DNA of 64,000 nucleotides from Hyphococcus luteus (GTDB lineage: Bacteria; Pseudomonadota; Alphaproteobacteria; Caulobacterales; Parvularculaceae), in NCBI RefSeq assembly GCF_002943565.1, contig NZ_PJCH01000015.1, positions 248,001 through 312,000 of the forward strand, in the 5' to 3' direction. Below are positions 3,998 through 55,724 of this stretch, in pieces. A program made the translations under genes and the position numbers. The notes beneath the pieces are model-generated. The model saw only the letters and a program-made list of their open reading frames with translations, had not been told where the DNA came from and made no database searches. Every line of letters begins with the position of its first letter. Position 1 is the first letter of the stretch.

Positions 3998-4339
3998 ATG
4001 TCTGTCGCAGAAGCCTCCCCGGTCACCGTATCCGAACGCGCCGCCAAGCGCATCGCCGCGATCCTCTCGAAAGAGCCGGAGGGCGCCATGCTGCGCGTCG
4101 CGGTCGAGGGCGGCGGCTGTTCCGGCTTCCAGTACAAATTCGACATCGTCACGGAGCGCGAGGATGACGATCTCGTCCTCGACGCGAACGGTTATTCCGT
4201 GCTGGTCGATTCCGTCTCGGTCGACTACATGGCCGGCTCGGTGATCGACTTTTCCGACGAGCTCATCGGCGCGGCCTTCAAGATCGAAAACCCGAACGCC
4301 ACAGCGGCTTGCGGCTGCGGGACGAGTTTTTCGCTTTGA
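3998..4339 (+). CDS. erpA: Iron-sulfur cluster insertion protein ErpA / A-type carrier
   Basis: 113-residue A-type carrier that passes Fe-S clusters to apo-enzymes in the cytoplasm. The three conserved cysteines are present: one in EGGGCSGFQYKF and two in the terminal ACGCGTSFSL. The start at 3998 (MSVAEASPVTVSERAAKRI) was chosen over an in-frame ATG at 3896, whose extra 34 residues are Pro/Arg-rich and unlike the family. It is divergent from dgt, the usual alphaproteobacterial arrangement; the exonuclease III gene that commonly follows erpA is here displaced to 8289 by an accessory block. Confidence 0.93.
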   Translation: MSVAEASPVTVSERAAKRIAAILSKEPEGAMLRVAVEGGGCSGFQYKFDIVTEREDDDLVLDANGYSVLVDSVSVDYMAGSVIDFSDELIGAAFKIENPNATAACGCGTSFSL

Positions 4340-4346
4340 GGGCCAG

Positions 4347-4541
4347 ATGATGAATTACACATTCAAAGTCATTCGACGCACTGAAGGCTATGATGAGCAT
4401 ACTGTGACAATTGACGCGCCATCACGGACTGAAGCGAAAAAGCTGATTGAAAATGGCGAAGGTGTATATGAATCTCTAGATCGTGATGAGCTTGATAAAA
4501 TAAAGATAACAGACATCATCAATGCACAGCCCGTCGAATGA
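4347..4541 (+). CDS. Small acidic protein overlapping the DpnI-family gene
   Basis: 64-residue protein beginning 8 bases after the erpA stop (MMNYTFKVIRRTEGYDEH). The predicted pattern is two beta strands, an Ala-rich helix (PSRTEAKKLIENG) and a short strand. Its stop overlaps the ATG of the following DpnI-like gene in the sequence ATGA, which implies translational coupling. GC content drops sharply at this gene compared with erpA. In pneumococcus the DpnI cassette also holds a second small gene, dpnD; the strand-helix pattern here is compatible with the DpnD/PcfM type, but I cannot show homology by eye. The name is left open. Confidence 0.6.
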   Translation: MMNYTFKVIRRTEGYDEHTVTIDAPSRTEAKKLIENGEGVYESLDRDELDKIKITDIINAQPVE

Positions 4542-5308
4542 AACTTGGATTTGAAGAAGCTCAAGCTTCTTACAGCAGCCAATCTCAAAATGCGCGCGCA
4601 CTCACTGAGTACTGGGCTTCCAACACATTATTTTGCCCTGCATGCGGCTGTGAAAAGTTAAATAAATTCAAAAATAACAACCCTGCGGCTGATTTTTTTT
4701 GCCCAACATGCAACTAAGAATTTGAACTGAAAAGCCAAAAGAAAAAATTCGGCAAAAAAGTTCTGGATGGGGCATATGACACATTAACCCGCCGTCTCAA
4801 CGCTTCGAATAATCCAAATTTTGCATTTTTAAGCTACGATCCGGATAGTTTATCGGTAACTAATTTATTCATGGTGCCGAAGCATTTCTTTACGCCCAGA
4901 ATAATAGAACGTCGCAAACCTCTTGCGTCAACGGCAAGGCGAGCAGGTTGGGTGGGCTGCAATATTTTATTGGACAAGGTACCAGAAGCTGGAAAAATTT
5001 TCGTCGTCAAGGATAGCAGGGTTGCAGAAAAAGAAACTGTTACAAGCCAGTGGCATAAGACAGCATTTCTGCGTAACGAAGCCATTCCATCTCGTGGATG
5101 GCTGCTTGACGTAATGAGGTACACCGAAAAACTAAACAAGCACTCTTTTACTTTGGCGGAAATGTATGAGTTCGAAGAGGAACTGCAAAGATTATATCCA
5201 AATAACAAAAATATACGCCCTAAAATCAGACAACAGTTACAACGTTTACGCGACAATGGGTATTTGGCTTTTCTGGGGAACGGAAAATATGAAATCATAC
5301 GCAACTAA
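4538..5308 (+). pseudogene. dpnI: DpnI-family methyl-directed restriction endonuclease with one premature stop
   Basis: R.DpnI cuts GATC only when adenine is methylated. Reading from ATG 4538 gives MKLGFEEAQASYSSQSQNAR, a CPAC/CPTC zinc finger (Cys 33, 36, 55, 58), catalytic-type Asp52 in PAADFFCPTC, then TAA at 4715-4717 (codon 60), and in the same frame EFELKSQKKKF with Glu63 and Lys65 of the D-x10-E-x-K nuclease motif. The rest is collinear with DpnI: PLASTARRAGWVGCNI, PSRGWLLDVM and a C-terminal winged-helix region ending KIRQQLQRLRDNGYLAFLGNGKYEIIRN in part. Full length would be 256 residues against 254 for pneumococcal DpnI. DpnI has Glu at the stop position, so GAA to TAA is the likely single change. 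The DNA is AT-rich against its surroundings, which suggests transfer. Confidence 0.9.
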
Positions 5309-5401
5309 ATAAGGGCTTTACCCCAAAAACGCATACTTACAGCTCGTACTGACAGTCATTGTCCGCTATCCTCCCCGCACAAACAAAAAGGGAGGGAAGA
5401 C

Positions 5402-5854
5402 ATGCGGACATTACTCATGGCGGCGGCCGGCGCCGCGTTGCTGGCGGGATGCGCAGGCGAAGACCCGCAGGCCGCGCTCGAAGCGGCGAACAAGGAGAAG
5501 GCGCTTTACTGCATGGACCTTCTCTTCAACCAGCACGAGCTGAATCAGGCCAAGGCCGAGTGCTTCGGCGAGACTTATATTCAGCACAACCCCGCCGCGC
5601 CGGACGGCGCCGATGCGCTGATGGCGTTTCTCGGGCCGTTCTTCGAGGGCAACCCCGACGCCTCCATCGACATCAAGCGGTCCGCAGCCGAAGGCGATCT
5701 CGTCTGGATCCATTACAACAACAAGCCGACGCCGGATTCCTTAGGCCTCGCGGTGGTCGACATCTTGCGCATGGAAGACGGCAAGTTCGTGGAGCACTGG
5801 GACGTGGTGCAGCCGGTCCCGGAAGAGTCGGCCAACGACAACACGATGTTTTAG
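5402..5854 (+). CDS. SnoaL-like (NTF2-fold) lipoprotein
   Basis: 150 residues with a lipoprotein signal, MRTLLMAAAGAALLAGCAG, giving a lipidated Cys at residue 17. The mature part has the SnoaL-like pattern: a helix followed by YIQHNPAAPDGADAL, FFEGNPDASIDIKR, GDLVWIHYN and VVDILRMEDGKFVEHWDVVQPVPE. Such proteins are annotated as predicted SnoaL-like aldol-condensation enzymes, though their true reactions are mostly unknown. A GGGAGGGAAG ribosome site precedes the ATG. High GC use marks the return to native-looking DNA after the AT-rich DpnI-like gene. Confidence 0.8.
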   Translation: MRTLLMAAAGAALLAGCAGEDPQAALEAANKEKALYCMDLLFNQHELNQAKAECFGETYIQHNPAAPDGADALMAFLGPFFEGNPDASIDIKRSAAEGDLVWIHYNNKPTPDSLGLAVVDILRMEDGKFVEHWDVVQPVPEESANDNTMF

Positions 5855-6777: not shown

Positions 6778-7494
6778 ATGAACGTCACTGAGGCCATAAA
6801 ATCCCGCATTTCCACGCGGGCCTTTCTCGACAAGCCGGTGAGCGAGGCCAATATCCGCGCGCTGCTCGAGATCGCCCGCTGGGCGCCGTCCGGCGGGAAT
6901 CTCCAGCCCTGGCGCGTTCATGTGGTCACCGGCGCGGCCCGCGACCGGCTGGTCGCTACGGTGAAACAGGCGATTGCGGACAATCCCCTCGCCGACGAAA
7001 GCGAGCTTGAAGTCTATCCGCCGAAACTCGCCGAGCCCTGGCGCACGAGGCGCTATGAGGTGGGCGAGGCTATGTATGCGCGTCTCGGCATTCCGCGCGA
7101 GGATAAGCCGGCGCGCCTGAAGCACTTGATGCGTAATTATGAGTTTTTCGGCGCCCCCGTGGGTCTTTTCTTTTCCCTCGACCGGCGCTTCGACAAGGGC
7201 CCGACCGCGAAGGCGGTCAAATTATAATCTGCGCGCCTTCGCGCGCGGGGGGCGCATCTCGGCATGTTCATGTTGGCGCTCGCCCTCGCCGCGGAAGAAG
7301 CAGGCCTTGCGACCTGCGTGCAGGAGGCGTGGACGCGGCAGGCGAAAACCGTTTCCGCCTTTCTCGAGCTTCCCGACAGCGACCAGCTTTATTGCGGCAT
7401 GGCGCTCGGCTATGCCGACCCTGACGCGAAAGTGAACGAGCTGCGTTCGGCCCGCGCCGAGGTGAACGAATTCGCGCGCTTCCTCACGCAATAA
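6778..7494 (+). pseudogene. Nitroreductase-family gene interrupted by a small palindromic insert
   Basis: FMN-dependent nitroreductase. The first part (6778-7200) has MNVTEAIKSRISTRAFLDKPV, APSGGNLQPWRVHVV and MRNYEFFGAPVGLFFSLDRRFDKG. The second part (7249-7494), in the same frame, continues GAHLGMFMLALALAAEEAGLATCVQEAW and ends NEFARFLTQ. Between them about 48 bases encode residues foreign to the family and contain TAA at 7225-7227. Homologues usually run from the DKG-like segment through a short GQW-type link into LGMF. The reading frame is kept across the insert, so a clean insertion rather than a frameshift explains the break. An N-terminal product of 149 residues would lack the C-terminal flavin-binding part. 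Confidence 0.85.
7204..7246. repeat. Palindromic insert inside the nitroreductase gene
   Basis: CGCGAAGGCG (7206-7215) and CGCCTTCGCG (7234-7243) form a perfect 10-base inverted repeat around an AT-rich loop that carries the stop codon. Each arm is also a small hairpin by itself (ACCGC-gaag-GCGGT and GCGCGC-cttc-GCGCGC). The structure resembles a minimal REP-type element. No second copy was found by eye in the window. Confidence 0.6.

Positions 7495-54515: not shown

Positions 54516-55724
<1,209 letters not shown>

Follow-up and report, generated by a model that had tools for sequence, protein, structure and literature searches.

Restriction enzymes of the DpnI type (type IIM) act on G-m6A-TC, and an intact enzyme of this kind cleaves incoming Dam-methylated DNA while sparing a host that lacks GATC methylation. 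Two described systems lie closest to the locus reported here: R.DpnI of Streptococcus pneumoniae, the product of dpnC, and the product of drg (dam replacing gene) in Neisseria. The catalytic residues of R.DpnI are Asp53, Glu64 and Lys66 (PMC4117772). According to PMC4687349, GATC occurs less often than expected in 38 of 42 genomes that encode such enzymes.

Here we describe a DpnI-family gene of Hyphococcus luteus, located near the start of the window (the whole 64,000-nucleotide stretch of DNA that was analysed), whose reading frame is crossed by one stop codon. We put the probability that this gene has recently been inactivated by a nonsense mutation at about 75%, and a base-call error is the main alternative.

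Results

A DpnI-family reading frame with a stop at codon 60

The features of the locus are as follows, all on the forward (+) strand.

3998..4339, +, iron-sulphur cluster biosynthesis family gene (PF01521, 9.6e-21), directly upstream of the cassette
4347..4541, +, first cassette gene, a 64-aa open reading frame of unassigned family with relatives in genomes G012 and G016
4538-5308, +, second cassette gene (DpnI-family nuclease), whole frame of 256 codons by translation, with its terminal TAA at 5306-5308
4538..4714, +, 5′ piece of the nuclease gene before the stop, 59 residues (PF06044, 9.2e-19)
4715..4717, +, in-frame TAA, codon 60 of the nuclease gene, from translation of the frame 4538-5308
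4718..5308, +, 3′ piece of the nuclease gene after the stop (PF06044, 2.4e-46; PF17726, 5.9e-29; PADLOC mREase_II, 1.9e-76)
5090..5293, +, winged-helix (DpnI_C) domain, residues 185-252 of the bridged frame (PF17726 match)
5402..5854, +, SnoaL-like gene (PF12680, 2.4e-15), the downstream flank of the cassette

Translation of the nuclease frame agreed with the original prediction that its 256 codons are open except for the TAA at 4715-4717, which is the sole internal stop, and a genome search found the gene in one copy in the 4.9-Mb genome. When the stop was bridged with an X, a profile search matched the frame to both the N-terminal nuclease domain PF06044 (2.4e-72) and the C-terminal DpnI winged helix PF17726 (5.9e-29). 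The two pieces flanking the stop matched PF06044 independently (9.2e-19 and 2.4e-46) and the second of them also matched PF17726, so the resemblance to a nuclease goes beyond chance. R.DpnI (4esj, also 4kyw) was the only PDB sequence match at E ≤0.001 (4.4e-77, residues 7-252). Together with the two Pfam domains and the PADLOC match to mREase_II, this bears out the family identity that had been proposed.

Alignment with R.DpnI paired Asp52, Glu63 and Lys65 of the bridged frame with Asp53, Glu64 and Lys66. The 5′ piece carries two CxxC pairs (C33/C36 and C55/C58) and Asp52, and the 3′ piece carries the remainder of the PD-(D/E)XK domain with Glu63 and Lys65, followed by the winged helix. The stop separates the counterpart of Asp53 from those of Glu64 and Lys66, and at its position R.DpnI has a Glu outside this catalytic set; both the placement of the three residues around the stop and the Glu at its position had been predicted correctly. 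The domains and catalytic positions are thus present in a frame that, unlike that of the DpnI family, is not uninterrupted. Judged from its sequence, this is a disrupted DpnI-family (Dam-replacing, type IIM) gene and not a working member as assembled, because the TAA interrupts it. Translation would end after 59 residues, ahead of the Glu64/Lys66 counterparts and the winged helix, and for this reason no active enzyme is expected: the product as assembled should be a 59-residue fragment without activity, and the stop probably abolishes nuclease activity. By analogy, an intact version would work like R.DpnI and Drg, and would presumably cut G-m6A-TC.

The remainder of the gene is unworn

The bridged frame was aligned with 176 homologues, taken from 178 protein records after exclusion of the window's own 64-aa protein and of one record outside 230-300 aa. 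The homologues were the best matches of searches with the bridged query, and therefore the set leans to close relatives. At the stop column, 174 of the 176 have Glu and the other two have Asp. Eighty columns of the alignment are conserved at ≥95%, and the frame from the window departs from them only at the stop; at the same columns the homologues show a median of 0 and a maximum of 12 departures, with none in 93 of 176. Approximately 184 sites were informative and 0 had changed, which limits the neutral change since selection lapsed to less than about 1.6% per site (0.016) at 95%, a bound that assumes that every change at these sites would be visible. Because no change was found where one would show, the loss, if real, would be recent, and a lapse of selection that came with the stop would lie less than about 1.6% neutral change in the past. 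The view of the gene as unworn apart from a single nonsense change is consistent with these results, as is the claim of a recent loss, provided that the stop is real. Comparison with relatives for the same stop accompanied by decay, which had also been proposed, came out in favour of the original prediction: codon 60 was a stop in 0 of the 176 homologues, and a single one of 80 genome-contig loci was stopped, at another codon. A second strain was sought in the protein searches and none was found, the best identity being 66% among the matches listed (up to 120 per search, from at most 8000 candidates).

Real mutation or base-call error

The stop could have arisen as an error of sequencing or assembly, or could represent a minority allele if the sample was mixed, with the gene of the organism itself intact. 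We regard this as unlikely, while giving it real weight: only one position departs, in a column that hardly varies, and the gene is otherwise unworn; the homologues at the same site are open in two congeners; and an intact gene with one miscalled base would look just as little worn. Against an error stands the quality of the assembly, which comprises 16 contigs and is 99.17% complete. Across the first 23 kb of the window, 24 reading frames (22 places) each matched genome G025 in one piece and without a change of frame. Contig number and completeness are signs of quality, and neither tests a single base; likewise, the assembly looks clean because the frames match G025 in one piece, a result that one wrong base would leave unaltered. 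Overall, the stop is probably present in the organism itself.

Stops were found in two of the 24 matched frames. One is a 257-aa frame in which the stop precedes the likely start of the window's protein, and the other is a nitroreductase gene that contains a repeated element. In this nitroreductase-family gene (PF00881, 6778-7494), a 45-bp palindromic insert at 7200-7249 introduces an in-frame TAA (7225-7227), beyond which the frame is open again; G002 and G021 lack the insert. The palindromic element matches at 10 more places scattered through the same genome.

Readthrough or a useful fragment

A further possibility is that the stop is read through, by a suppressor tRNA or by programmed readthrough, to give low or conditional amounts of DpnI; in its favour, the frame past the stop is fully kept. 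The cassette would then hold a silenced yet usable DpnI, with the enzyme dosed by readthrough at a low level or in some condition. Both proposals appear very improbable. A stop at codon 60 occurs in none of the 176 homologues, and of the 41 tRNAs listed none had a stop-reading anticodon. The tRNA list, with 41 entries above the Rfam cut-off and 43 at E up to 10, is incomplete, as tRNAs for Ile, Ala(TGC) and Leu(TAA) are missing from it. Neighbouring genes use TAA as an ordinary terminator, 6 of 20 syntenic ones ending in it, and the gene's own terminal TAA follows an AAC codon just as the TAA at codon 60 does. The RNA fold at 4685-4775 is unremarkable (z −0.21; 75 of 200 shuffles equally stable). 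A suppressed or regulated stop had been one of the options in the original prediction; given the lack of a conserved stop, of a stop-reading tRNA in the incomplete list and of a notable RNA fold, regulated readthrough was set aside. A changed genetic code was set aside, as all three stop codons are in use, with TGA 8, TAA 6 and TAG 6 times at the ends of 20 genes that have matches in G025; these are the 24 matched rows minus one cut by the window edge, two SnoaL rows from the same place and the nitroreductase. Separately, ARAGORN placed a tRNA-Leu (gag) at 55313-55407 of the window that is absent from the Rfam tRNA list of the genome, and a second Leu(gag) lies on contig C9.

Least probable of all is that the 3′ part serves as a methyl-sensing winged-helix protein started at ATG 4871, the first in-frame ATG, GTG or TTG past the stop: the resulting 145-codon reading frame does contain the winged helix, but no ribosome-binding site is evident by eye ahead of 4871, and no identical protein appeared among the best 120 matches although the 64-aa neighbour from the same contig is in the database.

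A two-gene cassette at a variable site

The nuclease gene is the second in a small AT-rich cassette of two genes downstream of the iron-sulphur biosynthesis gene. The stop codon of the 64-aa reading frame and the start codon of the nuclease gene overlap (ATGA), and both genes have 41% G+C in a window of 60%. Relatives of the 64-aa product precede DpnI in G012 (55% identity over 56 aa) and G016 (49% over 57 aa), and weak matches lie ahead of DpnI in L028 (E 0.020) and L043 (E 8.3). No Pfam or NCBIfam model matched it over the cut-off, DpnD included, and DpnD was rejected as its identity. A protein search with the 64-aa sequence returned a single candidate, itself; this search was insensitive, because the relatives in G012 and G016 exist and were missed.

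The iron-sulphur gene is present at ≥80% identity in 25 of 28 genomes of the genus, and in all 25 the 1.3-1.5 kb downstream of it was read. DpnI is encoded in three of the 28 (this genome, G012 and G016), and in the same three of the 25 sites a small reading frame and then DpnI follow the iron-sulphur gene. The DpnI copies of G012 and G016 are open, and are 62% and 60% identical to the frame in the window. Close matches to the SnoaL-like gene (72-91% identity) occur within 1.5 kb downstream of the iron-sulphur gene in G005, G009 and G025.

The site after the iron-sulphur gene (window 4340-5400; L113-L137 in the 25 genomes) is variable: three genomes have the DpnI cassette, and other genomes have differing reading frames that are often AT-rich, for example in G009, G024, G025 and G027. 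It is possibly a place of exchange for defence or other small genes.

A tree was built from 102 proteins, namely 60 candidates (P0002-P0061) less P0005, the G012 duplicate, 39 of the 80 loci and four further proteins. Seven rows make up the smallest group with strong support (99/96) that includes the window: the three proteins of the genus together with P0002, P0003, P0015 and P0006, the last being practically the protein of G016. On sequence grounds, a single old cassette at this site fits best, and repeated arrival at a variable site would be the alternative, which we do not rank first. A mobile carrier was also considered and rejected, since the matches (6 of 72,556 plasmid and 3 of 50,697 phage records) were all distant, with <60% identity.

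Host methylation and GATC

The host had been predicted to suit a DpnI-type enzyme in that it methylates GANTC and leaves GATC unmethylated. The genome encodes one protein with a PF01555 match over the cut-off, of 382 aa and with a RAMA domain, which matches CcrM (PDB 6pbd, 1.2e-166). No Dam-class (PF02086) match exceeded the Pfam cut-off, the best reaching 21.4 against 22 bits. These two findings make the argument from GANTC methylation reasonable, and GATC is presumably unmethylated in the host.

At locus L184 on contig C12 (75-4021), a helicase that resembles DpdJ adjoins a further methylase-like protein, of unassigned specificity, with several MTase and DUF1156_MTase matches. The two are perhaps a defence pair.

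GATC is not avoided in the window and occurs at the expected rate (tau* 1.08), a statistic of the same kind as that in PMC4687349, though not an identical calculation. The normal rate differs from that of most genomes described there, and it neither helps nor breaks the reading of the gene as inactivated.

DpnI genes elsewhere, intact and damaged

At the level of the order, 6 of 80 genomes had a DpnI match: this genome, G012, G016, G061, G069 and G073. The copies of G012, G016 and G073 are open across the matched span. Damage recurs within the order, as the G061 gene carries an insert and the G069 gene is without its N-terminal part. In G061 (L191, contig C8), an insert of roughly 85-90 bp with an inverted repeat, at about 4415-4510, splits the gene; the element differs from the repeat element found in the window. 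At the level of the class, 5 of 385 genomes had a match, this one included, and the other four were partial or weak.

Among the best 80 of 229 genome-contig loci, one was stopped within the matched span, and this count is a low estimate of damage because the best 80 were kept. In this locus (L086, from a Turneriella MAG), one in-frame TAG at 4313-4315, codon 105 of the match, interrupts a DpnI frame that is otherwise open. None of the damaged genes in G061, G069 and L086 is damaged at codon 60.

Discussion

The most likely account is an ordinary, recent loss of a defence gene, in which one nonsense mutation would have ended nuclease function. The locus would then show, as a clean case, a solitary restriction gene of the methyl-directed kind shortly after its loss, and two congeners have open versions at the same chromosomal site. 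Provided that the stop is genuine, the strain should accept Dam-methylated DNA, such as ordinary E. coli plasmids, and the two congeners may not. A search of the literature for a broken DpnI gene found nothing on point among the papers listed. The known picture of DpnI enzymes is unchanged by the gene in the window.

The cassettes of G012 (taken as the MAG Marinicaulis sp. OFTM304, L008) and G016 share with the window the site after the iron-sulphur gene and the order of the two genes, and differ in that their matched frames have no stop. The frames in G061, G069 and L086 are like the one in the window in being interrupted or shortened, from causes unlike its TAA: an insert, a missing N-terminal part and a TAG at another codon, respectively.

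With R.DpnI of S. pneumoniae the gene shares both domains and the positions and spacing of the catalytic Asp, Glu and Lys. The R.DpnI locus (dpnC/dpnD; described in part in PMC3573125) is similar in that a small gene accompanies the nuclease gene and no methylase gene adjoins it. The window differs from it in the in-frame stop at codon 60 and in its companion, which precedes the nuclease gene and has no match over the cut-off to DpnD or another Pfam family.

A parallel in composition and setting is drg of Neisseria (PMC4269198). Like the gene in the window, drg is an AT-rich DpnI-type gene at a variable chromosomal site, with 40.5% G+C in a genome of 52%, compared with 41% for the cassette in its window of 60%, and its hosts are Dam-negative, as would fit a host here with no PF02086 match over the cut-off. 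It differs in lying at the leuS/dam site and in encoding an enzyme that is active in N. gonorrhoeae FA1090.
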